Source of the DNA: an uncultured Akkermansia sp.
GTDB lineage: Bacteria; Verrucomicrobiota; Verrucomicrobiia; Verrucomicrobiales; Akkermansiaceae
Assembly: GCA_947588735.1 (NCBI GenBank)
Contig: CANQAD010000018.1
Location: 1-34,565, forward strand
DNA: 34,565 nt
Direction of reading: 5' to 3'
Both the position numbers and the translations under genes were made by a program. The notes under the pieces are model-generated. The model was not told the DNA's origin. It did not search any database and saw only the letters and a program-made list of their open reading frames with translations. Each line of letters opens with the position of its first letter. Position 1 is the first letter of the stretch. Shown one piece after another: positions 4,347-34,511 of the stretch.

Positions 4347-4347
4347 A

Positions 4348-4548
4348 TCAGTGTCGGTTCGTTAATTCCTCCGCCACGGCGCGGCTTTTTTGTTCGTCCG
4401 TACCTTGTAAATGAGGAGTGAAGAAAAACACACGCAACACCGCAAAGATGATCACTAACTTGAGCAAGATCACATACCAAAGCGTGCGTCCCAGCGTCAT
4501 GCGCCGGAAGCCATCTCGGTAAAATCTGTAGATGCCGCGTATGCCCAT
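4348..4548 (-). CDS. DUF4492 small membrane protein of the cyd operon
   Basis: This 66-residue protein carries the RFYRDGFRRMTLGRTLW segment followed by a hydrophobic helix (WYVILLKLVIIFAVLRVFFF), which fits DUF4492. Members of that family are known as a small gene directly upstream of cydA in Bacteroidetes and Campylobacterota. Function is unknown. Its fixed position suggests a role in assembly or stability of cytochrome bd, perhaps analogous to CydX. The frame extends upstream to a GTG at 4572, but I chose the ATG at 4548 because a -10-like TAGAAT (4557-4562) lies between the two, and GGGGAG directly precedes the ATG. Its stop is separated from cydA by one base. Confidence 0.8.
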   Translation of the reverse strand: MGIRGIYRFYRDGFRRMTLGRTLWYVILLKLVIIFAVLRVFFFTPHLQGTDEQKSRAVAEELTNRH

Positions 4549-4556
4549 CTCCCCGC

Positions 4557-4586
4557 ATTCTACCTTACTCACCTGCCATGAAGCAA
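4557..4586 (-). promoter_or_regulatory. Candidate promoter of the DUF4492-cydAB operon
   Basis: On the minus strand TTGCTT (4586-4581), 18 bp, and TAGAAT (4562-4557) form a sigma-70-type promoter, with the ATG only 8 bases after the -10 box. The core reads GGTAGAAT, as in two other operon promoters in this window. The message would have almost no leader. Confidence 0.5.
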
Positions 4587-4641
4587 GAAAAAAAGACCGG
4601 CAGCCCCACTCGAAGCTGCCGGTGGCGAGGCAAACTCGCGT
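4586..4641 (-). terminator. Double-hairpin intrinsic terminator of autotransporter 1
   Basis: Reading on the minus strand after the autotransporter stop there are two hairpins: GCGAG/CTCGC (4639-4625), then the perfect 8-bp stem CCGGCAGC/GCTGCCGG (4622-4597) followed by CTTTTTTTCT. This is a strong rho-independent terminator. Near-identical copies end the next two minus-strand genes at 7957-8010 and 11115-11164. Confidence 0.9.
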
Positions 4642-4669
4642 TTTTGTTTACTTACTGTAATGGTGAGCG

Positions 4670-7423: not shown

Positions 7424-7504
7424 AGGAATTATTTTATAGAGTCTGAATTTTCCCTTAGCCCTCACCATATACACGTAAGAGCTTTGGTACAGGAGCGAGT
7501 GTAT

Positions 7505-7522
7505 CGCATTTCGAATGAGATG
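7505..7522 (+). repeat. Left inverted repeat of switch 1
   Basis: CGCATTTCGAATGAGATG; pairs with the reverse complement of 7670-7687. The TTTCGAA core is shared by both ends and would be the strand-exchange region. Confidence 0.7.
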
Positions 7523-7669
7523 TACAGAAAAAAGTGTTATCATTTCTCGTTTTTAAGTAAGTTAACGTTCTGAGGCATCTTCGGATTTCGAAAGAAGTAA
7601 AGACGAGAGAGAGGAGGGATTGTTTCTTCAAAGCATTTTTGGTAAATATAAAACGAATACCCGTGTGCT

Positions 7670-8038: not shown

Positions 8039-10765
8039 TCAGAAGGCTATGCTGACCCCTCCGCCGACGCTCCACGAATTGGAACCGCTGCGCAAGTCTG
8101 CTTCACCGTTGACATAGAGCAGTGTGTCTCTGTCCACAGGTATGCTGACGCTCGCACCGAGCTGCGCCCCCACGACACCTGTTTCGGCCGAACGAACCCG
8201 TCCGCTGTAACCGCGGTCGCCGAGGAAGGAAACATCGGCCTCGCTGCGGCGGTCGCCCATATCTACTGCCACATTGGCTCGAATCTCCAGCACAGCAGCG
8301 CGACTGAATGTCTGTTCTCCACACTGAGACACAAAGCGAGCTCCGGCTGTCAACGTTGTCAACGTGGATTTCTGTTCTCCCACGTGGAGTCCGGCATCAC
8401 CGGCCCCATTTTCATTGTAGCCATCCATCTTTGTGGTAATGACCGAAAGACCGATCAGAGGCTGAAGAAGGCTGCTCTTCTGCTCATTAAGCGATATATC
8501 ATAAGCCAATTCGTAGGCAGCTCCGAATCCGGCGCCGTTCGTACTCCCGCTGGTAGCGTAGTCGAGCACATAGGGCGCAACACCGCCACGGATAGTGCGG
8601 TTGAACTCAGCATCCGAGAAACCGGCGGACACGACGAAGCTGTGGTGGAAATTGCCGCTGCGATGGTGAGCGTAGAGGTTCACATAGTAGGTATCCAGAT
8701 CTCCCTCGGCATGATCCGCCGCATCAACTTTCAAGTCGCCATAGGAAGCAACGAGGGAGAGACCGATGATGGGACCTCCGCCTTGGAGATCTTTCTCCAC
8801 GCCTACACCGGCTCCCCATGAGTTGTGTTCATATCCGGTTTCATCCCCGGATCGATCCAACTTGGCGCTGCCGCCCATACCTTCCACCCACACGCGCATC
8901 CCTTGGTCAGAATCGTCACGTGCCGCCGGTTCTTGACCGAGGCGAGCTGCCCGCGAAGCAGCGCGAGAGAGCTGCCCACGCATGGCATCCCGTTGTGCGG
9001 CTCCCAGCGCCGGCACAGCGCTGCCGACCACGGCAGACATGAGCCGCTGAGCCTCACTTCTGGCTGCGGCCGGATCAATGTTTGTTTCCTCGATGAGTCT
9101 TTCAGTGATCCCTGACTCAGCGATCATCGCAGCCATGGCTACAGCCGGTTGCCCTCCCTGCCCGATTTGAGCAAGTTCCGCGATGACACCTGCCACATTC
9201 CTCAGCTCTGAGGAGGTCGAATAATTCATGGCGTGGTAGAGCATGCCTGCGCCGGTCCGCGTGTTTTCGGAGATCGCAAGAGGCGCAAAAATGGTATCGG
9301 GATTGGGGTCATCCGGAATAGGCTCGATGGGGGCATCCGGCAGGTTGGCTCCATCGCCGGCTATCACGTAGAGTTGGACGACATTTCCATCCTTCTTCTC
9401 GACCATCAGATACGGATCGTCATATCCATCCACGGTGACCGTTACATTCTCCTTGAGCCATCCGTTGAGCTTCGACTCGCTGTCCACATCCGTATATTGT
9501 TCGGTCACCGAAAACGTGCGATCTCCGTCATCATGCTCCCCGTATTCAATGGAAGTAAGAACAATGCCGTTCGCCTGGATGAGGAGTTGCTTCAAATCCT
9601 TACCATGGTTCTCTGCGAATTCCACCCGAACGGTCAGCTTGGTTGGGTTTGATGTGTCTTCCTCCCACGTTGTCGTCTTCAACACAATTGCCCCGGACGC
9701 CGTGATTTTGGCTCCCATCTCACCCTTGCCATACTTCACCACCAGCGTCGACCGATCTTCCATGTCAAAGCTGAGTCCCCTCTGCCTGACAGGTTCATAT
9801 ATCCGCGAATCAAACTTTACGGAATCTGATTCCTCGTCATAATGCCAAGTGGGGGCATCGAGAAGTTTTCCGAGAGAAACTTTCGTCCCCTCCTCCATGG
9901 TCAACGTGCTTCTGGTTTGCAATTTGTCCGGATTGTCCCACGTATCAAAAGAAATGTCATGAACGCTTCCTAACTGCAGACCTTTGAACTCGTCCTTTGC
10001 GCCGGCGAGAGCGACATTGCCGCAGGCCACGGACAGGTTGGTCCCTTGAGATGTGACGTCGGTGAAAGTTTGATGGCTCGTGTCCAGACTTGGTTTCGAA
10101 GGGTTGAAAAGACTACCAACTTCAATAAATTCTTCGCCCTCTATCCTCCCGCTGAAATTCCCACCGGCGCCATCAATGAAAAAGCTACTAAAACCATAAA
10201 CCGGATTCTTTCGAAGGGTCAAAGTTCCACTCCCGTTCAGACTTGTACAGTTCAAGTCGGCCACGGACATTTCTCCGCCTTTCTCAATCGTTAAGATGCC
10301 AACTCGTGAAGTAATATCATCCGAAATTGTGACCTTTGCTCCGTTCTGCACGACAATCTCGCCTGGCCCGCCCCACACAGTACCCAGTTTCGATTCTCCT
10401 GCTGCAAAGATGATCTTTCCTCCCGGCTTGTCTTGATTACCCAATTCTTTCTCAAACAAATGGAGTATTCTCCCCCCACCCAGGTAGTTACCGTTGTACG
10501 TGAGTCCTCCCATGATGGTCAGGCTGTGTCCTTTTTCCACAATAATGTAATGGTCCGCCCCACTATCCAGTGTTAAAGCATGGCCCAAGATGGCGTCTTC
10601 CCCCTCCACCACAATACTGACGGACCCACTCGGAGCTCCTGTCAATTTTTCAAGACTTGAATCTTGGTCATTTACAGTCACAGTGACTGTACCAAATGCC
10701 ATTGTGCAGCACAAGAGCGCCGCCAGCACCGCATTGCGTAAAATATAGGGTAATCGAAGTTTCAT
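8039..10765 (-). CDS. Autotransporter (type Va secretion), copy 2
   Basis: A 908-residue paralogue of the autotransporter at 4670-7423. It has a signal peptide starting MKLRLPYILRNAVLAALLCC, a beta-helix-like passenger (SLTIMGGLTY, IVVQNGAKVTI, LTIEKGGEM), the same DAPIEPIPDDPNPD linker, the alanine-rich helical segment and the C-terminal barrel ending SVGGGVSIAF. The open frame extends up to 10942 through the switch region, but those 59 residues precede the signal peptide and are not expected to be translated; the start is 10765. There is no Shine-Dalgarno. The last 474 residues match copy 1 exactly, with identical DNA, while the passengers differ by many substitutions and small indels. This is the pattern left by recent gene conversion of the barrel. 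Confidence 0.9.
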   Translation of the reverse strand: MKLRLPYILRNAVLAALLCCTMAFGTVTVTVNDQDSSLEKLTGAPSGSVSIVVEGEDAILGHALTLDSGADHYIIVEKGHSLTIMGGLTYNGNYLGGGRILHLFEKELGNQDKPGGKIIFAAGESKLGTVWGGPGEIVVQNGAKVTISDDITSRVGILTIEKGGEMSVADLNCTSLNGSGTLTLRKNPVYGFSSFFIDGAGGNFSGRIEGEEFIEVGSLFNPSKPSLDTSHQTFTDVTSQGTNLSVACGNVALAGAKDEFKGLQLGSVHDISFDTWDNPDKLQTRSTLTMEEGTKVSLGKLLDAPTWHYDEESDSVKFDSRIYEPVRQRGLSFDMEDRSTLVVKYGKGEMGAKITASGAIVLKTTTWEEDTSNPTKLTVRVEFAENHGKDLKQLLIQANGIVLTSIEYGEHDDGDRTFSVTEQYTDVDSESKLNGWLKENVTVTVDGYDDPYLMVEKKDGNVVQLYVIAGDGANLPDAPIEPIPDDPNPDTIFAPLAISENTRTGAGMLYHAMNYSTSSELRNVAGVIAELAQIGQGGQPAVAMAAMIAESGITERLIEETNIDPAAARSEAQRLMSAVVGSAVPALGAAQRDAMRGQLSRAASRAARLGQEPAARDDSDQGMRVWVEGMGGSAKLDRSGDETGYEHNSWGAGVGVEKDLQGGGPIIGLSLVASYGDLKVDAADHAEGDLDTYYVNLYAHHRSGNFHHSFVVSAGFSDAEFNRTIRGGVAPYVLDYATSGSTNGAGFGAAYELAYDISLNEQKSSLLQPLIGLSVITTKMDGYNENGAGDAGLHVGEQKSTLTTLTAGARFVSQCGEQTFSRAAVLEIRANVAVDMGDRRSEADVSFLGDRGYSGRVRSAETGVVGAQLGASVSIPVDRDTLLYVNGEADLRSGSNSWSVGGGVSIAF

Positions 10766-10842
10766 AGAAATAATTGTGAATGATTTTTTACCTCTGCACA
10801 CATCGTTTGTCCGTGAGCGCTTCGGTACAAGGACGAGTATAT

Positions 10843-10860
10843 CGAATTTTAAAAACGATG
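10843..10860 (+). repeat. Left inverted repeat of switch 2
   Basis: CGAATTTTAAAAACGATG; pairs with the reverse complement of 11008-11025 at 13 of 18 positions, including the whole TTTTAAAA core. Confidence 0.7.
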
Positions 10861-11007
10861 AGCACACGGATATTCGTTTTATATTCACAAAAAATGCTTT
10901 GAAAAACCAGTCCCTCTTCTCTCTCGTCTTTATCCTTTTCAAAATCTCGGGATGCCTCAGAACGCTAACCTACTTAAAAACGAGAAATGGTAACATTTTT
11001 TCCTGTA

Positions 11008-22422: not shown

Positions 22423-24249
22423 CTATTTGGTTGAACAAAGGTTGCGAAGCTGGGGAAGGTTTTCCGAACTTACGGAGAGAATCAGGATATCCGGCTTAAA
22501 GGCGAGAATGTCTTTCTTGTATAACTTCATGATTTTAAGTTCATCTTCCCATTTCACCAGCCCCAAATTCACCCTAATATATTTAAGCTGAGCCGCAGAG
22601 TAAGGGAGGAAAAAATTGAGATTGTCATTTTGCGAGGATCCCACCAGTATGACCCTGTGTCTTCCCTCGGGATATGAAAACTCCTTGATAAACCTTCCAA
22701 CTTTCAATGACATCTTCGCGCGATTGCTGTGGTCATAGTAGCTATAGAGTGCTCGATTCGGGGGGGGATCTGAATCTCCATAATTGAAAAATTGGTAAAG
22801 CTGACGCCAAGTATCGGCGAACTCTGAACTTTCATCATATTTATCTCGAATTAGCCAATTTTGTGACTTTTGGAAGTCATTAAGAGAAACGATAGGCATG
22901 TCTGGAAAATCCTTCTGTACCTCTTTCATCAGTTCACGGTAACCGACATACGCTCCCCAATTTGTCCAATGGTGCGTCCATTTGAAAAACACAAAGTCTT
23001 GCTGGGTTGCATCGCGAATCGCCTTGTACGGATAGATGTAGGGAATATGGTGTTTGCGAGCTCCACTCCTAATGATTTCTTGTGCATGTGAAACCTCAGT
23101 TAATGCTTTCTCATCAAATCCGTAGTTTGCTTTGATGAGTTCCCTGTAAACAATCTCTTTTTTCGGCACCTCCAAAACGTAAAGTTTGATCTGATGTTGT
23201 TGACAAAACTCATTCAGTTGGATAATGTTTTGTACAATCGATTGAACAAAAGCTGGTCGGCAATCCAAGTCATATACGAGAGGAAGTCGAAAAATCCATC
23301 CGCTTTCCTTGAAGTAAAGAGCTCTTTTCGTACGGATAATGCAGGACAGTTTGTTCCGAAGGACATCGTGTAACTTCATCAGGGAAACACGACCGCAGAA
23401 ATGGTCATTGAACCAATTTTCATGCCGTCTCCCGTAGTCGGCTCCTTCTTTGAAGAGATCCCTTAACTCCGGCTTTACGGCAAGTGTTCTGCTTTCTCGT
23501 ACAGATTTCACCGCATCTGAAATGCCGATCATTGGAATAAAGAGAAGGAGAAAAAATGCGAGCAGGAGCAACATATCGCTGAGGTGAACGCATTCACAAC
23601 GCTTCGCGATATAAGACAGTAACAGGTAAATCAGGGAGAAGAACAACAGATTCCCCGTGATGATGTACCAGACTTTTCCGGATTTCAGCCATCTAAAATC
23701 GTGGATGGAAAAATGATGCCGACGAAACTCTGCTTCGATGTGAAGGATATCTCCCTTTTTGACATGAAGTTGCCTCATAAAGTTCTTTCTAAAAGAGAAA
23801 GCCCCTCGTTTCGGCAAGAAGGTTTTGCCGTTTATTTTGATATTTCGCCAATCCGTCAGGACAGAATAGAAAAAGCCGTACTCATCACGGATTTTCGGAC
23901 CTTCGAAAAGCATGGTGATTTCCCCGTCACGCTGTGCCTGAAGTTGGAGGGAAAGTTTCTGCCACTTTCCTCTCGCCCTCAAACTGAGACTGGATCGGTG
24001 AACATTCTTTCCGGCGACATACGCCCACGTAGTATAAGATGGGTTGGGCGTTACTTTATACTGAAAGGGTTCAGCACGGGTAATCTTGCCAGAATACAGC
24101 AACTCGAGCCTCGCTTCCTTGTTGAAAAGAGTGCGCACAAACCCGACATAATCGCACTCTGTCCACAGGGGAATGCATAAAGTATTAGCCAAGAGAGCTA
24201 GCATGCAAGTGACTAGTATCTTTTTGGCGCTTATCCATTGCTTGTTCAT
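22423..24249 (-). CDS. AlgJ/AlgX-like SGNH acetyltransferase-type protein
   Basis: A 608-residue membrane protein with an N-terminal anchor (12-30), an extracytoplasmic beta-rich domain (about 40-190), two more membrane helices (about 195-215 and 222-243) and a C-terminal SGNH/AlgJ-like domain (about 255-608). Such domains transfer acetyl groups to polysaccharides in the periplasm. Landmarks are ESGWIF (315-320), KLYVLEVPKKE (355-365), the active-site block FFKWTHHWTNWGAYVGY (421-437) and the serine-containing VGSSQND (536-542). The usual catalytic aspartate of the D-x-H-W motif is a threonine here (T425). A run of eight C on the coding strand encodes PPPN (497-500) at 22760-22767. Its start overlaps the stop of the acyltransferase gene by ATGA, so the two are probably partners. 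Confidence 0.75.
   Translation of the reverse strand: MNKQWISAKKILVTCMLALLANTLCIPLWTECDYVGFVRTLFNKEARLELLYSGKITRAEPFQYKVTPNPSYTTWAYVAGKNVHRSSLSLRARGKWQKLSLQLQAQRDGEITMLFEGPKIRDEYGFFYSVLTDWRNIKINGKTFLPKRGAFSFRKNFMRQLHVKKGDILHIEAEFRRHHFSIHDFRWLKSGKVWYIITGNLLFFSLIYLLLSYIAKRCECVHLSDMLLLLAFFLLLFIPMIGISDAVKSVRESRTLAVKPELRDLFKEGADYGRRHENWFNDHFCGRVSLMKLHDVLRNKLSCIIRTKRALYFKESGWIFRLPLVYDLDCRPAFVQSIVQNIIQLNEFCQQHQIKLYVLEVPKKEIVYRELIKANYGFDEKALTEVSHAQEIIRSGARKHHIPYIYPYKAIRDATQQDFVFFKWTHHWTNWGAYVGYRELMKEVQKDFPDMPIVSLNDFQKSQNWLIRDKYDESSEFADTWRQLYQFFNYGDSDPPPNRALYSYYDHSNRAKMSLKVGRFIKEFSYPEGRHRVILVGSSQNDNLNFFLPYSAAQLKYIRVNLGLVKWEDELKIMKLYKKDILAFKPDILILSVSSENLPQLRNLCSTK
22760..22767. repeat. Eight-base G/C tract in the AlgJ-like gene
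   Basis: A run of eight G on the plus strand (C on the coding strand) inside an AT-rich gene, three-quarters of the way through the coding region. A slip of one or two bases would remove the end of the SGNH domain, including the active-site serine. Confidence 0.7.
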
Positions 24250-25322
24250 GGCTGGCTTGAAATAGTTTCACGGAGATTTTTCTGAATTAGGTAATTACCA
24301 ATTTTCGGTACTAAAAACTTCTCAATCAAATGATATTCAATAATCCCTAACAAAATACCCCCCCCTATTACTATAATTCCTTTATTATCATAATTTAACA
24401 TTATTCTCAATTTATGTACACATTGCATCATAATTGCACATCCCATGAGAAAGGAGTATGTGTAACGAGAAAAAAATTGAATCCATGTCATTCGATTTAA
24501 GACTGCTGAAATATACCCCTGACCACTTGCGAGGGAAAGCATTAATAAGGAGAATACTAAATCTACCTCCAATGGAGTGTATTTTACATGAGAACCCCGG
24601 AACATATAACTAAAAAGCATATAGAAAGCAATTACTTCAAAAGAAGTAGCAACAAGACGGAACATATGTTTCATAGAAAAAACAAGATTTTCACTAATCC
24701 ATGATGCTAGCATCCCTAAACAGATACATCTGAGACCTAAGCAAGTACCTATGCTGACTACAGAATAATAAATTTTATCCACGTTTTCTGTGTACCGAAC
24801 AGGTACACCATGAAGTACAAGAGAGGTTGCGAGATATGCTAAAAGTCCAGCAATAATCCAGGCTCCATTCTTTGAGAAATTAAAGAGCCCGATCATCAGG
24901 CAACTTATCCAGAAATATACACAAATAAACCATTCCGAGTTCCGTATAACAGCTGGCACAATACCGGTTCCAGGAAGGAAGAACAAGAAATCAACAAATC
25001 TCCACCATGGTTTGTTCCCCACGAAAACCAAGATAATAAAAGCAAAAGCCATCGCCGGGAATAATCGTATCCACAGCTTTTTAACATGGTCCAATGGGCG
25101 AATCTTATTCCGAATTAAAGTTCTATGTAGAAAAAAGCCACCAATAATAAAGAATGGATCAATCCCATAGTTTAGGTGCATAGCTTTTGTATGAAATAGG
25201 GTCTTCAGGAACTCATGCAACCCCGGACACATATTCAACATATGGTGGACGGCAATTGCAAGGATAAAAATTATGCGCAATAGTTCAATACTGCAAAGTC
25301 TCTTCTGTTTCTGTTTGAGCAT
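24246..25322 (-). CDS. Acyltransferase 3 family membrane protein
   Basis: A 358-residue polytopic protein of the acyltransferase 3 (OafA/YrhL) family, which moves acetyl groups from acetyl-CoA across the inner membrane to sugars. The N-terminal RLCSIELLRIIFILAIAVHHM (catalytic-type histidines at 26-27) and the following ...YGIDPFFIIGGFFL motif are characteristic. About ten membrane helices follow. It lacks an own SGNH domain; the downstream AlgJ-like gene, joined by an ATGA overlap, could supply it. A G8 tract at 24358-24365 encodes the GGG of IVIGGGILLG near the C-terminus. A CAGGA site adjoins the start. The gene is AT-rich, unlike the housekeeping genes around it. Confidence 0.85.
   Translation of the reverse strand: MLKQKQKRLCSIELLRIIFILAIAVHHMLNMCPGLHEFLKTLFHTKAMHLNYGIDPFFIIGGFFLHRTLIRNKIRPLDHVKKLWIRLFPAMAFAFIILVFVGNKPWWRFVDFLFFLPGTGIVPAVIRNSEWFICVYFWISCLMIGLFNFSKNGAWIIAGLLAYLATSLVLHGVPVRYTENVDKIYYSVVSIGTCLGLRCICLGMLASWISENLVFSMKHMFRLVATSFEVIAFYMLFSYMFRGSHVKYTPLEVDLVFSLLMLSLASGQGYISAVLNRMTWIQFFSRYTYSFLMGCAIMMQCVHKLRIMLNYDNKGIIVIGGGILLGIIEYHLIEKFLVPKIGNYLIQKNLRETISSQP
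24358..24365. repeat. Eight-base G/C tract in the acyltransferase gene
   Basis: Eight C on the plus strand (eight G on the coding strand) in a gene that is otherwise AT-rich. Length is in the range that makes polymerase slippage frequent. Confidence 0.7.
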
Positions 25323-25377: not shown

Positions 25378-26013
25378 TCATGCAGATTTACTTTCCAATA
25401 TCGTTAAAACTTCTTTCGGGGAATTGGCATATCCTTTCACATGGGAAAACCCATACCCATAATTTACACCAATAAAGTCTATTCCGACCTCTTCAGCTGC
25501 CTGTTTATCCATTTCGGTGTCGCCGATCATCACCGCTTTACAAACATGGAGCCGTTCCATACACTCCTTAATCATGTCTGCTTTGGGTCTGATGACTCTA
25601 TCGTTTTGACCAACAATATAGGACATATATTGTGAAAATCCGAAATATTTGCATACAGCCTCGGCTATATCTTGTCTTTTGTTGGTTGCTATTGCTTGTA
25701 AAATACCGCGTTGTTGAATAGCATCCATCAATTCTACAGATCCTTCATATGGCTTGGCCTTGTAGAGATTATATTTTACATAATATTCTCTGTAGAAATT
25801 AGTTGCATTTTGAATATCATCGCCTTTCAAATGGAAATACTTTGAGAAAACTACTTGAGAAACCGGACCGTTAAGCCTCTCTAATTCCTCATCGCTCATT
25901 TCTTTTAGGCCCAGATTTTTGATGCAATATTTGTACGTGTCTATTACTCCCTCGGACGTATCCAAAAGAGTCCCGTCAATATCCCATATAACTGCCTGCA
26001 GTTTCATATCCAT
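25378..26013 (-). CDS. HAD-family phosphatase
   Basis: A 211-residue soluble hydrolase of the phosphoglycolate phosphatase-like HAD group. Motif I is WDIDGTLLDT (nucleophile D11, acid D13), motif II is the threonine of ATNKRQD, motif III a lysine in RPKADM, and motif IV MIGDTEMDKQAA. A helical cap domain lies between residues 20 and 90. The frame is open to 26091, but the ATG at 26013 directly precedes the conserved strand and lies 8 bp beyond the stop of the aldolase gene. Together with the two genes upstream it could perform the KdsC-type dephosphorylation step of a CMP-ulosonate pathway; this is inference from gene order. Confidence 0.85.
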   Translation of the reverse strand: MDMKLQAVIWDIDGTLLDTSEGVIDTYKYCIKNLGLKEMSDEELERLNGPVSQVVFSKYFHLKGDDIQNATNFYREYYVKYNLYKAKPYEGSVELMDAIQQRGILQAIATNKRQDIAEAVCKYFGFSQYMSYIVGQNDRVIRPKADMIKECMERLHVCKAVMIGDTEMDKQAAEEVGIDFIGVNYGYGFSHVKGYANSPKEVLTILESKSA

Positions 26014-26020
26014 TGGATGA

Positions 26021-26965
26021 TCATCTATCTTTATGGAGCATGTCATAAAAATCATGCAAGGATAAGTGTTCCTGCATCGCTTGTTGGGCACATGCCGGAT
26101 GAGCTTGACTATCTGCTGCCAGAGCGTAATAAAAAGCCTCCCATTCCTTTTGGGCCTGTCTTAAACTGGGGAAAATATACTTACTTTCGATATCCAAAAG
26201 TTCATCAACTCGGTAATTACCGCCATGGTTTTTGTTCACATATCCCATGAGCATTTCCAGATGCGGATTCCCGCTGGTCTTCCCTAATCCTCCTATACTT
26301 GCATCAAGTATAATATTTCGTTTTTTCGCATAATGATGCATAAATACCTGCGCTAATACAAAAGCAGAGAGCGAATTATCATGCAAATGCAACCCTAAAC
26401 AAATCGATGGATCAAGATTTTGATGTGCTTCGTCACATATTGTCAAGAAAGAAGGATAATTAAGCACTCCGTAGGTATCGGCGAGTGTGACATTAGTCAC
26501 GCCAAATCGAGATACCTCTCCCAACATACGTAATCTTTCATCCCTCGAGTATCCTGGGTAACATGTCAAATTAACGTGCAAGTTATACCCTTTATCAACG
26601 ATCTTTTGCACATACTCAAAAACATCGCGGTTGGCTCCCTCCTTGAATGTTACCCGTACATGCTTTAACTTCCCTCCGTTGTATGGTCTAAGATCCGATA
26701 TATCGTATTGAGGCGGATAAGGATAATCGATCATGAGTGTGTATTCCGCCTTGGTATCAGGATCTACATACTGTTCGGCTTCATCGACGAACGTATAGAG
26801 AGAACGTCCTTTTTTATGGCAATCAGGTCTTAAACATCCCAGTTCGATAAGATCGCATCCGCTCTGAGCTACAGCCGAGGAGATGTCACGCATTGCGGCT
26901 TCTCCCCAGTTGTAGCTGATAGCCCTTCCTCCATCTCTTAACGTAACATCCAGTATCTTTATCAT
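26021..26965 (-). CDS. HMGL-type (DRE-TIM) aldolase
   Basis: A 314-residue TIM-barrel enzyme of the HMGL-like family (4-hydroxy-2-oxovalerate aldolase, isopropylmalate synthase and relatives), which make or break C-C bonds next to a keto acid. The signature LDVTLRDGGR is at 5-14, with the metal-binding HLHDN in GLHLHDNSLSA and a glycine-rich GGLGKTSGNPHLE near the C-terminal end. Homologues of this type occur in capsule and LPS clusters next to a cytidylyltransferase. There it would act as the carbon-chain-forming step in place of a KdsA/NeuB-type synthase. Substrate cannot be inferred. It starts 1 bp from the cytidylyltransferase stop. Confidence 0.8.
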   Translation of the reverse strand: MIKILDVTLRDGGRAISYNWGEAAMRDISSAVAQSGCDLIELGCLRPDCHKKGRSLYTFVDEAEQYVDPDTKAEYTLMIDYPYPPQYDISDLRPYNGGKLKHVRVTFKEGANRDVFEYVQKIVDKGYNLHVNLTCYPGYSRDERLRMLGEVSRFGVTNVTLADTYGVLNYPSFLTICDEAHQNLDPSICLGLHLHDNSLSAFVLAQVFMHHYAKKRNIILDASIGGLGKTSGNPHLEMLMGYVNKNHGGNYRVDELLDIESKYIFPSLRQAQKEWEAFYYALAADSQAHPACAQQAMQEHLSLHDFYDMLHKDR

Positions 26966-26966
26966 T

Positions 26967-27623
26967 TTATTGTTTTTTTAATATTTGAGTATAAATTGCG
27001 TCTGCGATTAGAAAATCCTCCGGCCAGTCAATATCTATGCTTTCTAAAGCCGTACATTCGCACATAAAGGGCCTAGCGCCCGTACGCCCTTGGTACTTCT
27101 CAAAAACATCGCGTGTAAAGACGTAAGGCGAGGGCAACTCAGCGAAGATTTCCCCCATATCTTGTGTGCGTGGAATACTCCCACGTTGGAAGTTCATTGG
27201 TTCTCCGTTGCTCCACAAAAACTCAGCTACACGTTTACAAGTGAAAGCCGAATCATATTTGCCTGAAGCCACGGCATTAATACACGCGCTAAACCTTTCC
27301 GGCTTGATAAAAGGGGAAGTTGCATGAGATAAGACATAAATATCTGCCTCTACTGCATCGATGAAGGCACGTATGATATCTCCACACCTTGTAGAATTAC
27401 TATCCAATTCTTTCGGGCGTTTCAAGAATTCTACTCCCGGAAGTAAATAATCCCTGATACGCTCATCGCTACAATACACCACAATTCTCTCAATTTCAGG
27501 AACCTGAAGGAGAGCCCTTTGAATCAAATTGCATAAAGGAGTACCATCCGAAAAGGGTCTTATATTTTTTCCGGGAGTGCGTTCATTGTTGAACTTAATA
27601 GGTATAAAAGCCGTTATTTTCAT
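26967..27623 (-). CDS. CMP-sugar (acylneuraminate-type) cytidylyltransferase
   Basis: A 218-residue nucleotidyltransferase of the NeuA/KdsB group, which activates 2-keto-3-deoxy sugar acids with CTP. It has IPIKFNNERTPGKNIRPF (7-24) as the nucleotide-binding loop, VVYCSDERI, HATSPFIKPE and the C-terminal SIDIDWPEDFLIAD that typifies the family. It belongs with the aldolase and HAD phosphatase downstream: an activated CMP-sugar acid would be its product, and the sialyltransferase-like domain at 28723-30642 is a plausible user. No Shine-Dalgarno is visible, and the gene lies in the AT-rich part. Confidence 0.88.
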   Translation of the reverse strand: MKITAFIPIKFNNERTPGKNIRPFSDGTPLCNLIQRALLQVPEIERIVVYCSDERIRDYLLPGVEFLKRPKELDSNSTRCGDIIRAFIDAVEADIYVLSHATSPFIKPERFSACINAVASGKYDSAFTCKRVAEFLWSNGEPMNFQRGSIPRTQDMGEIFAELPSPYVFTRDVFEKYQGRTGARPFMCECTALESIDIDWPEDFLIADAIYTQILKKQ

Positions 27624-27682: not shown

Positions 27683-28693
27683 TCATCTGGGTAATGTTGT
27701 ATGGCTTTTCGATCTGGCAAACCATTTTTTTATAGTGCTCCAGAAGGGGTGATCGACAATTCTAAGGAAGTATTTTTTCTCATTAGTGCTGAATTCTGAA
27801 AAATTAGCTATTTCTCTGTAATTTCGAATGAGTTTTGACACTGCTTTTGCAAACACGAGACGTCTGAATCCAGCGAGTCTATCCTCCCTTTCCCACGAAT
27901 TTTTTAAAGAAATATAAAAAAATCTAAGATAGATTTCTAATGTGCTGGCATCCAAATTTTCTTCGTTAATTTGATTCTGGATTCTCTTATGAACATCCAG
28001 AATCCAGCGAGCACACGTATACCCCTGATTAATAGCTTGACTGGAACTGATCCTATAGTAGTAATAAGCATTTGAAACCACGTACAAAGAGGCCAACTTC
28101 GTGTAGACGCACCAGCCAAAAAACATATCTTGGAAGGAAGCCCCGGGCGTTGTTGTAAAACAAATGTTGTTATTATTAAGAAAGGAGCGTCGATAAATGG
28201 AACTCCAAATAGACATGTGTCCATAGACGAATTTAGCCGCTTGCTTTTTGTCAGTGATACGTTTATTCAGTGATTCCTTTCCGAAAGCTGTCTTATTGAT
28301 CCTAATTCCCGAATCGGTTGCCATAAAGAAGAATGACTTAACAACATCCACATTTTCACGAAGAGCTATTCTATACAGATCATCATACATCTCAGGTGAA
28401 ACCCAATCATCAGAATCAACAAAGCCCACATATTCTCCTTGGGCTGCTTTAATTCCCTGATTATAAGCTATACCAAGACTTTCATTTTTGTTTATATGAA
28501 TGACTCGGATGTTTGGATTTTCCTTGGCGTAATTATTCAGTATACGTGGACAAGAATCTGTTGATCCATTGTCAACTAATATAATTTCAATTTCCTTTAG
28601 CTTCTGAATCAGAAGGCTGCGTACACACTGATCGACGAAACGCTCAGTGTTATAAACAGGAACAATAACCGAAACACTTGGTGATTTGAACAT
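27683..28693 (-). CDS. Glycosyltransferase family 2 protein
   Basis: A 336-residue GT-A fold enzyme. The strand SVSVIVPVYNTERFVDQCV, the LVDNGSTDSC nucleotide-binding loop and the FVDSDDWVS metal-binding DxD (93-96) are complete. The C-terminal half (about 150-336) is basic and aromatic-rich, as in Bacteroides and Streptococcus capsule transferases. Donor and acceptor are unknown. The next gene upstream is a GT2 fusion with a similar N-terminus, so the two probably arose by duplication. Low-GC codon use is unlike the housekeeping genes of the window. Confidence 0.88.
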   Translation of the reverse strand: MFKSPSVSVIVPVYNTERFVDQCVRSLLIQKLKEIEIILVDNGSTDSCPRILNNYAKENPNIRVIHINKNESLGIAYNQGIKAAQGEYVGFVDSDDWVSPEMYDDLYRIALRENVDVVKSFFFMATDSGIRINKTAFGKESLNKRITDKKQAAKFVYGHMSIWSSIYRRSFLNNNNICFTTTPGASFQDMFFGWCVYTKLASLYVVSNAYYYYRISSSQAINQGYTCARWILDVHKRIQNQINEENLDASTLEIYLRFFYISLKNSWEREDRLAGFRRLVFAKAVSKLIRNYREIANFSEFSTNEKKYFLRIVDHPFWSTIKKWFARSKSHTTLPR

Positions 28694-28722: not shown

Positions 28723-30642
28723 TTATGATATAATGAATTCCGGATTAACTATTATCTCGGGATGTTCCCTAACATAAAGAGATGTGTACACATCATGAAA
28801 TATACCTCTCAATCCTATTGGATTAATCGAAATTATCTCAACATCGGGATAATAAATTCGCTGCATTTCTTTTATTTTAAGGTATCCGCTTTTAAGTCTC
28901 TTAATATTCATCGGAAGCTGAAACTTTGTACTTGTCAAGTAACCATTATTAGCAGTATCACACCCCACAAGATAAATGTGCTTTGGACGTGTGTATAAGA
29001 GAAAATGAAGGGCGGGATGTACCACAGTACAAAAGTCGGCAAGCGGGAAATTTTCTATGTCTTGATAAGCGTAAACTGTGCACGAACCTTCAGAATAATA
29101 CCTCTCAGCGTGGGCCTTCTCCGCTATGTATTCCGGTATGCCATACTTTTGATTGCGTTCATAAATATATTTTCCAAAAAAATTAATACATCCATAATCA
29201 TATGTATTCTGAATGCAATCACTTACACCCAAATAGTCTTGCATGAAACAATAATCAAATCTAAACTGCTTAAAAGTGATCGCTTTATTTACTGCTAAAT
29301 ATTTTGTATTATCAAATATCGGCGCATACTTGACTGTTGGTCCACACGCGACAATCATTACATCGCACCCTCTATTACTATCCTTATACTTAGGAAACGT
29401 TCTCTGATGTGTCCGCGAAATTGCCTGTGCGAAAAGAGCAGATCGTAAAGATTCAGCCTGATTTCTCTCCTGAGAAACGGAAATTTGGGACTTCCAAATT
29501 CTCATGCCAAAGAGTCGCGTTATTAGGTTTTGACCCTTCCTTTCTTTCTTAAGCAAGGGAAAATAAAAAAAGTAATTTATTTCATGGTCTTGAGCGCGGA
29601 TATGTTTCCATATCTGAATTCCTAAAAATTTTTTAATTATTTCTTTATTTTTTTTCTTTTTTTTGTAAAGCATGTCCCATACAGAAGCGACCACTGGATG
29701 TTTCTGGATGATGATGAGGCATCTTTTTTCTGATACGTGAAATTGGGAAAACTTTATTCCCTGAACTACCATTTTGAAAAATGCCGATAATTTTTTGTAT
29801 GCAAAAGGTCTCTTAGATGCGAATTGGTAATTGTGACACTGATCACCGTAAAGGGAAACATATGCATCCTTAACATATCTTTCAAAATAAGCGTGTTTCG
29901 TCCCATTTTTCGACAACCAGATAAAAAGCTCTTTCCACATATTTACTTTCGTATCCAATTCTTTCATGCTGAATTTTCCAATACGCCTTTCTTTCCTTAT
30001 GTTTCGGTAATAATAACTTGATGAAAAGATATAACATCTTCGCATTGTGGCAAAAACTTGCCAATTAAAGTATATATCCGAATATACCGCATCCTTAACG
30101 GGAAGGAATTGTATATTATTTCGAAGGATAAATTGACGAGAATATATTGCACTCCAGTAAGAAGTGTTGTCCGCTGCAAACTGGGGGATAAGAAGTGAAT
30201 TTTCTATTATGCAATTGGTTGTTTCTAATCTACCAAACTTGTTACAAATTTTTACTATTTTTCCATTATTTGCGATGGTATATAATGATTTTACGACATC
30301 GGTGTCATGCTCAATAGCTTTTTTTAGGAGTTCATAGTACATTTCCTTATCTACGTAATCCCAAGGTTCTACAAATCCAATATAATCACCTACCGCAATC
30401 TTTATACCTGAATTGAGTGCTATGCCAACCCCCTCATGAATTTTATGTAATGTACGGACACGTGGATCCATTTTCGCATATTTATCGCATAAATCACTGG
30501 ATTTATCCGTTGAGCCATCATCAACTAAAATAATTTCTATATCCGATATGACCTGATTGAGAATACTATCCACACATTCTTTCAACTCGGTTTCATTATT
30601 ATATATCGGTACGATAACAGAAACTTTTGGTATATTCGACAT
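28723..30642 (-). CDS. GT2 glycosyltransferase fused to a sialyltransferase-like domain
   Basis: A 639-residue two-domain protein. Residues 1-325 are a GT2 transferase (SVIVPIYNNETELKECV; LVDDGSTDKS), but the DxD site reads FVEPWDYV instead of FVDSDDWV. A lysine-rich linker with repeated motifs FLGIQIWK (339-346) and LFGMRIWK (377-384) follows. Residues 425-615 form a second Rossmann-like domain: VMIVACGPTVKYAP (428-441), FDYCFMQDY, HIYLVGCDTANNGY (555-568) and EIISINPIGLRGIF (602-615). Its layout resembles Campylobacter CstII-type (GT42) sialyltransferases or DUF115 proteins. The open frame begins at 30732, but GT2 homology begins at 30642. Two poly-A(8) tracts lie in the linker. The fold assignment for the second domain is tentative. 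Confidence 0.65.
   Translation of the reverse strand: MSNIPKVSVIVPIYNNETELKECVDSILNQVISDIEIILVDDGSTDKSSDLCDKYAKMDPRVRTLHKIHEGVGIALNSGIKIAVGDYIGFVEPWDYVDKEMYYELLKKAIEHDTDVVKSLYTIANNGKIVKICNKFGRLETTNCIIENSLLIPQFAADNTSYWSAIYSRQFILRNNIQFLPVKDAVYSDIYFNWQVFATMRRCYIFSSSYYYRNIRKERRIGKFSMKELDTKVNMWKELFIWLSKNGTKHAYFERYVKDAYVSLYGDQCHNYQFASKRPFAYKKLSAFFKMVVQGIKFSQFHVSEKRCLIIIQKHPVVASVWDMLYKKKKKNKEIIKKFLGIQIWKHIRAQDHEINYFFYFPLLKKERKGQNLITRLFGMRIWKSQISVSQERNQAESLRSALFAQAISRTHQRTFPKYKDSNRGCDVMIVACGPTVKYAPIFDNTKYLAVNKAITFKQFRFDYCFMQDYLGVSDCIQNTYDYGCINFFGKYIYERNQKYGIPEYIAEKAHAERYYSEGSCTVYAYQDIENFPLADFCTVVHPALHFLLYTRPKHIYLVGCDTANNGYLTSTKFQLPMNIKRLKSGYLKIKEMQRIYYPDVEIISINPIGLRGIFHDVYTSLYVREHPEIIVNPEFIIS
29648..29664. 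repeat. Two adjacent eight-base A/T tracts in the fusion glycosyltransferase
   Basis: T8-C-T8 on the plus strand, encoding lysines of the linker (residues 326-332). A one-base slip would cut off the second domain while leaving the GT2 domain intact. The region is AT-rich, so such runs are less surprising than the G/C ones. Confidence 0.5.
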
Positions 30643-30685
30643 AAGGGAAAAAAATAAAACCTTACAAGAGAGATATTTTATTGCA

Positions 30686-31759
30686 TTAACCTGGCACACT
30701 ATGTTCGTTGATTTGCTTGACGCAGAAGTCATACATATCGCTTGTCGTGAGGGCTTCCTTGTACCAATCCACCGTCTTGTGCACCGCCTCCTGCAGCCCC
30801 CATCTCGCTTCCCACCGCAACATCGTGTACGCCTTGGTCACATCCAGATTCAGCAGCGTGTTCTCATGCATAGCGTTCGGGTCGCTGGCATCCACCACGC
30901 TCCCCTTGCCGTAGTACTCCACGAGAGTTTGCACCACTTCCATCACTGTCTTGTTCGCCTTGAGTTGAGGACCGAAGTTGAAGCAGGTCGCGTACTTCAC
31001 CGGGTCTTCCATGAGCCGCTGACCCACGCGCAGGTAGCCGGAGAGAGGCTCCAGCACGTGCTCCCAAGGGCGCGTGGCTTTCGGGTTGCGCACCTGAATC
31101 GGCTTGCCCTCCTCAATGCTGCGGATGCAGTCCGGGATGATGCGGTTGGCCGACCAATCGCCGCCGCCGATGACATTACCCGCACGTACGGATGCCACGG
31201 CTTTTCCGTGTTCCGCATAGCGAGCAGGGTTGAAGTAGGATTGCCGGTAGGCATGAATCATGAGTTCTGCGCATCCCTTGGAGGCCGAATAAGGGTCTTC
31301 TCCGCCCATGCGATCCGTCTCCTTGTAACCCCAGATCTGTTCGCGATTCTCATAGCATTTGTCTGAGGTGATCATGACGGCTGTCCGCAAACAATCATGC
31401 TTCCGCACGCACTCCAGCACATTCAGACTCCCCATGATGTTCGTCTCGAAAGTGGTTTTGGGCTGCTCGTAGGAGGTGCGAACGAGGGCTTGCGCCGCCA
31501 GGTGAAAGACAATTTCAGGCCGGTACTTCTCGATGGCTGCACTGAGGGTGTCCAAATCCCGCACATCCCCGCGCAGGTCAGCGTGCAGATGTTCATACAA
31601 GTGCGAAGCGCAGTAATTCCCCTTCTTCGAGTACGGTTCCAGCGCATAGCCCACCACTTTCGCTCCCATCATCGTGAGCCAGATCGCCAGCCACGAGCCC
31701 TTAAAGCCGGTGTGTCCCGTCACCAACACCGTCTTGCCTTTGTATGCGTCGTTATACAT
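30686..31759 (-). CDS. rfbG: CDP-glucose 4,6-dehydratase
   Basis: A 357-residue extended SDR enzyme that converts CDP-glucose to CDP-4-keto-6-deoxyglucose. It has the NAD-binding GHTGFKG at 15-21, a VFHLAAQALVR block, the TSDKCYEN segment typical of RfbG, the catalytic YSASK motif, VRAGNVIGGGDWS, and RPWEHVLEPLSGYL. Its start overlaps the stop of the upstream SDR gene by 8 bp. With rfbF two genes upstream it forms a complete route from glucose-1-phosphate to the 4-keto-6-deoxy intermediate. The base composition is higher in G+C than that of the genes that follow. Confidence 0.95.
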   Translation of the reverse strand: MYNDAYKGKTVLVTGHTGFKGSWLAIWLTMMGAKVVGYALEPYSKKGNYCASHLYEHLHADLRGDVRDLDTLSAAIEKYRPEIVFHLAAQALVRTSYEQPKTTFETNIMGSLNVLECVRKHDCLRTAVMITSDKCYENREQIWGYKETDRMGGEDPYSASKGCAELMIHAYRQSYFNPARYAEHGKAVASVRAGNVIGGGDWSANRIIPDCIRSIEEGKPIQVRNPKATRPWEHVLEPLSGYLRVGQRLMEDPVKYATCFNFGPQLKANKTVMEVVQTLVEYYGKGSVVDASDPNAMHENTLLNLDVTKAYTMLRWEARWGLQEAVHKTVDWYKEALTTSDMYDFCVKQINEHSVPG

Positions 31760-32660
31760 GTTCTTTCCACTCTTGAATGGTTTCTTTTAGTCCTGACTCC
31801 AAGTCGTACTTTTGCTGCCAGTCGATGGAACAAAGCTTGCTATTATCTCCGACTAGTATTTCATGCTTCGGGGCACCGGGAAGCGCCCCCCATAAGATTT
31901 TTCCACGAAAGTCTGTGAGCTTGGCGATGGTTTCCACAATATCACGCAGCTGCACCGGTTTTCCGGAGCAAATGTTCACAGCCCCGGAGAGTTCGCTCTC
32001 AAACACGTCCGCAATTCCCCGCGCCGTGTCTTTGATATATAGAAAATCTTTGTAATTGAGACAATGGCTTATCCTCACATCTTCGCCTCTCATGCACGAT
32101 TCAATGACTGATGGAATGAGCCTGAAAGAACGCTTATCTCCGTATCCGAAGCAATTAAAGGGACGAGGCCATTGGAAGCGCAACCCATTCTTTGCACAGT
32201 AGATACGCGCTACTCGGTAAAGTGAGTTTTTGCCATCACCATACAAGGTGCCCGGACTCGTTGGAGTCTCATCTTCACGCATAAAGCCGTACTTATACTC
32301 ATATTCTGCGCATGTACCGCTCCCCAAGAAATGTTTTCCCCCTCCACTGGCAAAACATTCCAATAGGTGCAAACTAGCCGTCAGCCAACTCATATTCAAG
32401 TTATGAACGTGCGCTTCAAGTCCCACATACCACGCCAGATGCAGCAGATGCGTAAACTTCTCTTGCGCCATGAATGACTCCACCGCTGCGGTATCCAGCA
32501 AATCCAGTCGGTGGACGGTGACGCCGGGATGCGGCTTCACCTCCCCGCTGTGCACCACGGCGTGTACGCGGTAGCCGCGCCGCAAAAGCTCCGCCAGCAC
32601 ATGCGATCCGATGAAACCCGAAGCGCCCGTGAGAAGAATCTTTTTGTCCTGCGTACTCAT
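31752..32660 (-). CDS. NAD-dependent epimerase/reductase (SDR) of the CDP-deoxyhexose pathway
   Basis: A 302-residue extended short-chain dehydrogenase with GASGFIG at 12-18, the SGTCAEY segment and a YGDGK active-site motif (Y-x3-K). It sits between rfbF and rfbG, so its substrate is probably the CDP-4-keto-6-deoxyhexose made by RfbG. It could act as a 4-reductase or epimerase (compare RfbJ/RfbS, CDP-abequose and CDP-paratose synthases). Start 32660 is chosen because ATGA overlaps the rfbF stop; an in-frame ATG 5 codons upstream is the alternative. It overlaps rfbG by 8 bp, so the three genes are one transcriptional unit. Confidence 0.85.
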   Translation of the reverse strand: MSTQDKKILLTGASGFIGSHVLAELLRRGYRVHAVVHSGEVKPHPGVTVHRLDLLDTAAVESFMAQEKFTHLLHLAWYVGLEAHVHNLNMSWLTASLHLLECFASGGGKHFLGSGTCAEYEYKYGFMREDETPTSPGTLYGDGKNSLYRVARIYCAKNGLRFQWPRPFNCFGYGDKRSFRLIPSVIESCMRGEDVRISHCLNYKDFLYIKDTARGIADVFESELSGAVNICSGKPVQLRDIVETIAKLTDFRGKILWGALPGAPKHEILVGDNSKLCSIDWQQKYDLESGLKETIQEWKEHV

Positions 32661-33433
32661 GACCAAACTTTCCATGGCGCTTTGTTGCGTTCCCAGAGAC
32701 CGTTGAGCAAGGATTTGTCACGCTGTGTATCCATGCACTGCCAGAAGCCGCGGTGCTTGTAAGCCCCCAGTTGTCCGGCTGCTGCGAGCTTTTCCAGAGG
32801 TTCGCGCTCGAAGATTACGTCATCCCCCGTCCCGATGTAGTCGAACACCTCCGGCTGGCAGACAAAGAAGCCTCCGTTGATCCAGCTGGCGTCGTCCATG
32901 ACCTTTTCGGCAAACGCGCTCACTGTGCCATCCCCATCGATCGACATGGTCCCAAAGCGATTTGCCACCTGTACGGCCGTACAGGTGCACAGTTTCCCGG
33001 AATGCCTGTGGTATTCCAGCAGCTTGGCAACATCCACATCGGCCACCCCATCTCCATAGGTGAGCACAAAAGGCTCGTTGCCGATGTGTCGGCGAGCCTG
33101 AGCAATGCGCCCGCCCGTCATGGTATTTTCCCCCGTGTAGAGCATCGTGACCCGCCACGGTTCCACCCGCATTTTGTGCAACTCCACGCTATTGTGCTCC
33201 ATGTCCACCGTGAGGTCGGAGTATCGCTCGTAGTAACTCACGAAGAAGTTTTTGATCACGTGCGACAGGTACCCTGTGAGGATCACGAAGTCATGGTGAC
33301 CGTAGTGAGAATAGATTTTCATGATGTGCCACAGAATGGGGTGACCCCCAACCTGCACCATCGGCTTGGGGATCACCTGCGTCTCTTCGCCGAGCCTCGT
33401 ACCAAGCCCTCCTGCTAGAATCACTACTTTCAT
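32657..33433 (-). CDS. rfbF: Glucose-1-phosphate cytidylyltransferase
   Basis: A 258-residue enzyme forming CDP-glucose from CTP and glucose-1-phosphate, the first step of CDP-deoxyhexose synthesis. The nucleotide-binding LAGGLGTRLGEET (6-18), IPKPMV, the VDMEHNSVELH block, LTYGDGVADVD and the substrate-site KHRGFWQCMDTQRD are all typical of RfbF. Length equals that of the Salmonella enzyme (257). No 3,6-dideoxy gene (rfbH) follows in the window. Confidence 0.96.
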   Translation of the reverse strand: MKVVILAGGLGTRLGEETQVIPKPMVQVGGHPILWHIMKIYSHYGHHDFVILTGYLSHVIKNFFVSYYERYSDLTVDMEHNSVELHKMRVEPWRVTMLYTGENTMTGGRIAQARRHIGNEPFVLTYGDGVADVDVAKLLEYHRHSGKLCTCTAVQVANRFGTMSIDGDGTVSAFAEKVMDDASWINGGFFVCQPEVFDYIGTGDDVIFEREPLEKLAAAGQLGAYKHRGFWQCMDTQRDKSLLNGLWERNKAPWKVWS

Positions 33434-33470: not shown

Positions 33471-34511
33471 TTAAGATGTTTGAGCGCGTCGCCACGCTTG
33501 GTTACAGCGCATGCGGGCTACTTGCTGCTCATACCGCATTTGCCACCCACCTCGAAACAGGGCGCTGTTCAGACGGTAGCGCAAAATGCGTAACCAACGA
33601 ACCACAGAAGAAATGAACTTACGCTCGTTTTCAGGACGCACATCGGGCTCTGTGGAACCGAGGAAGAAAGTAGGGAGATGCCGAACGCGAGCCCCAGTGG
33701 AAACCTGTTCATGAATGAATATGGCGGTGAGGTGTTCCCCGAGGTATCCGCAGAAGCGTTTATCTGCAGCATTAAATGAGGAGCTATCAACAGATTTTCT
33801 CACATGCTGCAAAACATCAAACAGATAGGCGGCATATTTTCCGAAAAAGTCGCGCCTCCAAATCGCCATATTCCATTGATAAGCACGTGTGCCTTGCAAG
33901 TATTCTTGAGCATAGCGGCTCCGCTCGGGGTAGTGAGTATCTAAGTATTGAAGAGCTTCTGATAAGCCGATGTTGCCGGGATTTTTCTCAATGACGCGGC
34001 AGGGTTCGGGGGGGAATTTCGTCCATGTGTAGCGTCCTTCACCCACTTTCAGGCGGTAGGCCTGCACGGGTTCCGGGGCGTAGAGGGCATAATCACCCAA
34101 ATGAAGATTGGACAAGTCATTCATCAGGAAATGCAACTCAGCGCAGGGCTTTTTGTAGGGGACAATGATGCCTCCCGTGCAGGGAACTGAAGGAAGGAAC
34201 CCGCGGCGATAATGGATGAAACCGATGTAATCCGGGCTGCCAAGCTTGTCATAATTCTTCCACGCCCAGAAGATGGCAGAGAGCTCGGAAAAGTTGCGAT
34301 GCTGGGCGGAGATATTCATCCCCGTGTCATCTCCGATGCAATGTTCCTGCATCCAGCTCGCATCCTCGAAGCAAAGGACGTTATCATCATCATCATCAGA
34401 ACGACCACAGTGGATGGGAACGTAGATATCCCTGCCGCGATCCCCATCAAGACACGGGAGCGCGGTCGGCTTGTGGCAACATACCAGTATCTTGAGACTT
34501 GGGCAACTCAT
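33471..34511 (-). CDS. DUF4422 glycosyltransferase
   Basis: A 346-residue protein matching the DUF4422 family, seen in capsule and exopolysaccharide clusters and treated as glycosyltransferases. The KILVCCHKPTALP start, YVPIHCGRSDDD, GDDTGMNIS, FSELSAIFWAWKNY, DYIGFIHYRRGF and YQWNMAIWRRDFF blocks are characteristic. A run of seven G on the plus strand (34008-34014) encodes the KFPPEP segment, and a (ATC)5 run at 34383-34397 encodes five aspartates. The start overlaps the stop of an upstream partial gene (ATGA). Base composition is higher in G+C than in the downstream polysaccharide genes. Confidence 0.85.
   Translation of the reverse strand: MSCPSLKILVCCHKPTALPCLDGDRGRDIYVPIHCGRSDDDDDNVLCFEDASWMQEHCIGDDTGMNISAQHRNFSELSAIFWAWKNYDKLGSPDYIGFIHYRRGFLPSVPCTGGIIVPYKKPCAELHFLMNDLSNLHLGDYALYAPEPVQAYRLKVGEGRYTWTKFPPEPCRVIEKNPGNIGLSEALQYLDTHYPERSRYAQEYLQGTRAYQWNMAIWRRDFFGKYAAYLFDVLQHVRKSVDSSSFNAADKRFCGYLGEHLTAIFIHEQVSTGARVRHLPTFFLGSTEPDVRPENERKFISSVVRWLRILRYRLNSALFRGGWQMRYEQQVARMRCNQAWRRAQTS
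34008..34014. repeat. Seven-base G/C tract in the DUF4422 gene
   Basis: Seven G on the plus strand. Only three runs of seven or more G/C occur in the window, all in polysaccharide genes (the others are 22760-22767 and 24358-24365). Confidence 0.6.
34383..34397. repeat. ATC trinucleotide repeat in the DUF4422 gene
   Basis: Five ATC units in frame give a run of aspartates (SDDDDDNV) on the minus strand. Copy-number change would not shift the frame. Confidence 0.5.

Follow-up and report, generated by a model that had tools for sequence, protein, structure and literature searches.

A predicted CMP-ulosonate gene trio of Akkermansia with a DRE-TIM aldolase instead of KdsA or NeuB

To our knowledge, every biosynthetic route to CMP-Kdo and to sugars of the CMP-sialic type uses a PEP-dependent synthase, KdsA or NeuB, and the genes for these enzymes serve genome surveys as markers of ulosonate sugars. 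In the CMP-Kdo pathway, KdsA, KdsC and KdsB condense, dephosphorylate and activate with CTP. We analyzed a stretch of DNA of 34,565 nucleotides (the window), which is the entire contig CANQAD010000018.1 of a 2.2-Mb genome, 89% complete, from an uncultured Akkermansia sp. (GCA_947588735.1). Three adjacent genes in the window would follow the same logic as the CMP-Kdo pathway, but the predicted condensing enzyme is a metal-dependent aldolase of PF00682 and not the PEP-dependent KdsA. KdsA is missing from loci of this type and often from the whole genome, and many sister loci contain partners of KdsB and KdsC grade. The NeuB/NeuA, PseI/PseF, legionaminic acid and Kdn systems have a NeuA/PseF-superfamily cytidylyltransferase in common with the trio, and HAD proteins resembling KDN-9-phosphatase and sialyltransferase-like genes in common with the trio loci. 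However, a search for NeuB (PF03102) in the window's genome found none, and NeuB is absent from beside almost all relatives of the aldolase. The trio appears to represent a second route to CMP-activated surface sugars that has been overlooked.

The visible operon containing the trio runs from position 34511 to position 22423, with all 11 genes on the minus strand. Its first visible gene encodes a DUF4422 protein (33471..34511; PF14393, E 1.4e-38) that is a probable glycosyltransferase. A separate CDP-sugar branch follows in the same direction, consisting of a glucose-1-phosphate cytidylyltransferase (32657..33433; TIGR02623, 367 bits with a cut-off of 300), an SDR epimerase/reductase (31752..32675; PF01370, E 1.9e-34) and a CDP-glucose 4,6-dehydratase (30686..31759; TIGR02622, 488 bits with a cut-off of 278). 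Next are GT2b (28723..30732; PF00535, E 9e-30), which has an N-terminal family 2 glycosyltransferase domain, and the family 2 glycosyltransferase GT2a (27683..28693; PF00535, E 1.2e-36), directly upstream of the trio. The trio itself comprises CYT, a cytidylyltransferase of the NeuA/KdsB superfamily with 218 residues and a predicted CMP-ulosonate synthetase (26967..27623; PF02348, E 3.3e-15); ALD, an HMGL-like DRE-TIM aldolase of 314 residues predicted to condense pyruvate with a phosphorylated aldose (26021..26965; PF00682, E 5e-13); and HAD, a HAD-IA phosphatase (HAD_2) predicted to act on the ulosonate phosphate (25378..26013; PF13419, E 6.6e-36). The initial annotation had described this trio as contiguous with gaps of 1 and 7 bp, and genes, order and gaps were all found to be so: CYT and ALD are separated by 1 bp, and ALD and HAD by 7 bp when HAD starts at ATG 26013. 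The listed HAD reading frame begins at GTG 26091 and overlaps ALD, an overlap that the ATG start removes. A membrane protein downstream of HAD (24246..25322) is acyltransferase-like by inspection only and had no match in Pfam and NCBIfam searches. The last gene encodes an AlgX/DHHW-like protein (22423..24249; PF16822, E 6e-10), homologues of which flank the trio loci of relatives (L016-L018, L020-L022 and L024 in our numbering). Elsewhere in the window, two large autotransporters of 957 and 967 residues with the same beta-domain are encoded in tandem (4670-7543 and 8039-10942) and are apparently duplicates.

ALD matched the HMGL/DRE-TIM family (PF00682) in Pfam, its AF2 model (pLDDT 86) was a TIM barrel, and the RD and HxH metal motif was present. 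The closest fold was BVU_2661 of Bacteroides vulgatus (PDB 3dxi; Z 27.5, 2.7 Å over 260 residues), a structural-genomics entry titled 'putative aldolase' without a function, which shares the RDGG and HxHxN motifs with ALD. The 4-hydroxy-2-oxovalerate aldolase 1nvm scored Z 26.8, with acyl-CoA-dependent relatives close behind (Z 26). Across 87 ALD relatives of all contexts, R10, H193, H195 and N197 were invariant and D11 nearly so; R104 was nearly invariant and R216 common, and these two residues are candidates for binding of phosphate or carboxylate. The fold near 4-hydroxy-2-oxovalerate aldolase and the retained metal and enolate residues count in favor of the CMP-ulosonate reading. Fold, RDG and HxH metal motif and invariant Arg are those of the DmpG/MhpE/AmnG aldolases, but ALD differs from these enzymes in its glycan context, in having no dehydrogenase partner, and in scoring below curated cut-offs (44 bits with TIGR03217, cut-off 286). 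With characterised aldolases it shares about 20% sequence identity, which counts against the CMP-ulosonate reading. The position of DmpG His21, the catalytic His of 4-hydroxy-2-oxovalerate aldolase, also counts against it, being mostly Tyr in ALD relatives and Arg in ALD itself. Most relatives are longer, at 515-560 residues (L018 5779-7332 and most aldolases of L030-L109), and carry at the C-terminus an additional domain of about 200 residues that has an APGxS motif and no Pfam match and is absent from ALD. By eye this domain had seemed Maf/CstII-like, a likeness that we rejected when a comparison of profiles assigned it a probability of only 18%, across 46 columns.

Characterised aldolases with a fold close to that of ALD, of the DmpG and BphI type, serve catabolism, and an aldol reaction can run in either direction. 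The nearness of the ALD fold to this type would fit a trio in which ALD cleaves and ulosonates or keto acids are recycled or degraded. We regard this direction as very improbable, because the trio sits among glycosyltransferases and nucleotide-sugar enzymes, a search of the window operon for an acylating aldehyde dehydrogenase partner found none, and the operon also encodes an activating enzyme that consumes CTP and a domain that resembles transferases.

CYT scored over the Pfam cut-off for PF02348 and has R15, K19 and the D197 and D199 of the DID metal motif, an Asp pair with a metal role in cytidylyltransferases (PMC2901514). Its relatives in the PDB include CMP-NeuAc synthetase (1qwj, 1e-9), PpNeuA and KdsB, and its score with the curated KdsB model was 31 bits, below the cut-off of 193. 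In Neisseria NeuA and in KdsB, Q104 and Q98, respectively, contact the sugar, and their mutation harms sugar binding (PMC2901514). The corresponding residue of CYT is His100; the separate KdsB of the window's genome retains the Gln. Among cytidylyltransferases that partner the aldolase, the Gln was kept in 0 of 25 NeuA-like and 9 of 29 KdsB-like proteins. As the sugar-binding Gln is changed and the catalytic residues are kept, the product is probably neither Neu5Ac nor ordinary (LPS) Kdo. Loss of the Gln was also considered as a diagnostic feature and was rejected, since the position varies in NeuB-linked cytidylyltransferases as well (3 Gln, 4 Tyr, 2 Asp and 1 Thr in the control). This change argues for an unusual sugar and not for new chemistry. 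The PDB relatives of HAD were phosphoglycolate-phosphatase-like; HAD is not KdsC-like, a point against the CMP-ulosonate reading.

The last 300 residues of GT2b (residues 370-669, minus-strand positions 28726-29625) constitute a second domain, fused to the family 2 domain, with the predicted fold of the Maf flagellin glycosyltransferase and of CstI and CstII of GT42, to which its identity is 12-15%. The model of this domain (pLDDT 78) gave Z 12.9 with Maf 5mu5 (182 aligned residues) and Z 11.3 with CstII; the related nucleotide-binding folds of MptE-like proteins, SteA and thiamine pyrophosphokinase ranked between the two, and unrelated folds had Z<4. Foldseek placed SteA first and CstI (2p56) only at E 8e-3, such that the likeness rests on the VIA re-alignment and not on the Foldseek ranking. 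The Maf/GT42 fold found for this domain is shared with MptE-like kinases and SteA and is thus unspecific. A full-length GT2b homologue (43% identity) adjoins the trio at L022. At L018 of Akkermansia, a gene at 3508-5157 with a match to GT29 (E 5e-11), the animal-type sialyltransferase family, lies next to a trio with two cytidylyltransferases, and polysialyltransferase-like proteins occur at other trio loci. Nonulosonic acids are the sugars that Maf enzymes transfer, and one such enzyme also takes Kdo (PMC11339370).

A second trio with the same gene order was present on another contig (C15) of the window's genome, with identities of 64% for CYT, 41% for ALD and 46% for HAD. Aldolase relatives within the genus Akkermansia adjoin a cytidylyltransferase and usually a phosphatase too (L018, L020-L024), and HAD proteins of the window's subfamily adjoin ALD in other genomes as well. 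When ALD alone was used as the query against GTDB genome contigs there was no match. Relatives were collected by an alignment-based scan of one GTDB genome per species, which established a family of at least 508 confirmed members. The locus survey covered the best 80 of these, 76 of which had a recognisable aldolase ORF; the 80 loci were from Bacillota, Bacteroidota, Spirochaetota, Melainabacteria, Campylobacterota and Akkermansia. A NeuA/KdsB-type gene (PF02348) was found at most four genes from the aldolase in 43 of these 76 loci, and in 28 of the 43 both a CYT- or KdsB-type gene and a KdsC/HAD phosphatase were near the aldolase. As the window's genome has a second copy in the same order and 43 of the 76 loci have a PF02348 neighbor, we conclude that the trio is not a chance arrangement. 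In a maximum-likelihood tree of the aldolases the gene context was strongly clustered: the cytidylyltransferase context required 12 changes, compared to 27 after shuffling (none of 500 shuffles gave so low a number). ALD grouped with its C15 paralogue and L017 inside a cytidylyltransferase-associated clade. An aldolase, a 'KDO cytidylyltransferase' and a HAD hydrolase are also adjacent to each other on a plasmid of a cultured Leisingera. A Gastranaerophilales MAG (L056, 49-4777 onward) has a serial arrangement of two KdsB-like, two NeuA-like and two aldolase genes.

The aldolase was instead accompanied by a TPP enzyme of the acetolactate-synthase superfamily in 15 other loci of the 76, and one locus had both partners. 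The aldolase with an acetolactate-synthase-like TPP enzyme is a second, separate pathway. TPP-paired loci (L019, L036, L059, L073, L079, L082, L086, L087, L090-L092, L095, L098, L100 and L108) sometimes have a PfkB kinase or HAD gene as well. In a third context, the aldolase has as neighbors a split transketolase together with RfbH or a DegT aminotransferase (L149, a Desulfobaculum bizertense plasmid, and L084). Thirteen of the 76 loci had no cytidylyltransferase, phosphatase or TPP partner, which counts against the CMP-ulosonate reading.

The TPP-partner loci show that the aldolase family feeds more than one chemistry. This observation, the low identity of ALD to any characterised member and the presence of acyl-CoA-dependent synthases in PF00682 are consistent with a CMP-activated acid that is not a sugar or is built differently, from another nucleophile (for instance 2-oxobutyrate, hydroxypyruvate or an acyl-CoA) or an unphosphorylated acceptor, with HAD acting elsewhere. 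We consider such a product quite unlikely, because the nearest structures were 4-hydroxy-2-oxovalerate-type aldolases and not the acyl-CoA group, albeit by a small margin, and because partners of KdsC and KdsB grade occur at other loci. KdsB exceeded the equivalog cut-off at L060 and L103, and the phosphatase exceeded the KdsC-family cut-off (TIGR01670) at L020, L034, L060 and L071.

Among about 91 aldolase loci surveyed, none had KdsA and one had NeuB. At the level of whole genomes, neither KdsA nor NeuB was over threshold in 7 of 20 trio genomes, although the surveyed genomes are largely MAGs, in which such absence can reflect incompleteness. Strong NeuB was present in 9 of the 20, and weak KdsA and NeuB matches in trio genomes fell on proteins with the size of a DAHP synthase. 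In the window's genome there are genes for KdsA (contig C27) and a separate KdsB, both off the window contig, as is expected for LPS Kdo. The initial annotation had named a requirement for KdsA or NeuB encoded elsewhere as one outcome that would speak against the pathway. Its case stands insofar as the window's genome lacks NeuB and many trio genomes lack both synthases, and is weakened by the KdsA and KdsB on other contigs.

The KdsA gene of the window's genome would fit an alternative in which CYT activates an ulosonate made by KdsA or NeuB elsewhere, possibly derived from the LPS pathway, and in which the 2-oxo acid from ALD has no part in this sugar but serves to decorate or supply a different branch of the same glycan. 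Strong NeuB in 9 trio genomes and the occurrence of the aldolase without a cytidylyltransferase would also fit this alternative. To examine replacement, we searched an even draw of 200 Lachnospiraceae genomes for KdsB (E<1e-35); the draw was not conditioned on the aldolase, except that it includes the centre genome, picked earlier via its aldolase. KdsB was present in 18 genomes. In two of the 18, KdsA lay at a distance of about 2 kb from KdsB, without an aldolase in the vicinity. Of the remaining 16 genomes, 15 had an aldolase gene close to KdsB, in most cases directly next to it, while KdsA was not over the cut-off anywhere in the genome; one had neither near KdsB. Strong NeuB was missing too in 11 of the 15. 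With the centre genome left out the counts were 2, 14 and 1, and we calculate a probability of 3/136, or about 0.02, for both genomes with KdsA being among the three without the aldolase near KdsB. Such a distribution is to be expected if an unrelated aldolase had replaced the PEP-dependent synthase. Given that KdsA and the aldolase are mutually exclusive next to KdsB, that the tight trio order is kept across phyla, that many trio genomes have neither synthase and that the sugar site of CYT is unlike that of Kdo and Neu5Ac enzymes, we judge an ulosonate from elsewhere to be unlikely.

The preferred reading, to which we assign a probability of roughly three in four on genomic grounds, is that the trio is a CMP-ulosonate pathway with a DRE-TIM aldolase in place of KdsA or NeuB. 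As a divalent-metal enzyme standing in for the PEP-dependent synthase, ALD would turn pyruvate, or a 2-oxo acid close to it, into a metal-bound enolate, which would attack the aldehyde group of an aldose phosphate to yield the phosphate of a 4-hydroxy-2-oxo acid (an ulosonate). HAD would strip the phosphate, CYT would join the ring form to CTP, and the Maf/CstII-like domain of GT2b would transfer the sugar from CMP-ulosonate into the surface glycan of the operon. Phosphate hydrolysis, which would pull the reversible aldol step forward, and CTP use would together drive it. We infer the reaction, pyruvate as the nucleophile, the acceptor and the product, and hence the pathway, from genomes. Pyruvate enolate plus a phosphorylated aldose is the most economical reading, since a 2-oxo acid is common to the cytidylyltransferase and TPP partners and fits the aldolase fold. 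AraD (L-ribulose-5-phosphate 4-epimerase) is encoded in the trio clusters L020 (9565-10383), L022/L104 (10019-10837 in L022) and L063 (10001-10396), hinting at a pentose phosphate acceptor and an eight-carbon product there; the window has no AraD gene. Arabinose-5-phosphate isomerase and further genes that might supply an acceptor did not appear among the most frequent neighbors at aldolase loci. The order of condensation, dephosphorylation and activation proposed at the outset, with the aldolase in the KdsA/NeuB position, is supported by conservation of the trio across phyla, by the near absence of both synthases from the aldolase loci, by the complementary occurrence of KdsA and aldolase next to Lachnospiraceae KdsB and by the Maf/CstII-like domain in the window operon.

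We found no description of this gene set among openly licensed papers. We lean slightly towards the view that the aldolase family, with members in Bacillota, Bacteroidota, Verrucomicrobiota, Spirochaetota, Melainabacteria and Pseudomonadota, is a second, unrelated type of ulosonate-phosphate synthase whose pathways lead to at least one CMP-activated ulosonic acid of surface glycans that has yet to be described. If the aldolase route exists, many bacteria, gut Gram-positives among them, carry ulosonate glycans that have gone unnoticed, and the common family annotated as 'aldolase catalytic domain-containing protein' would gain a function.
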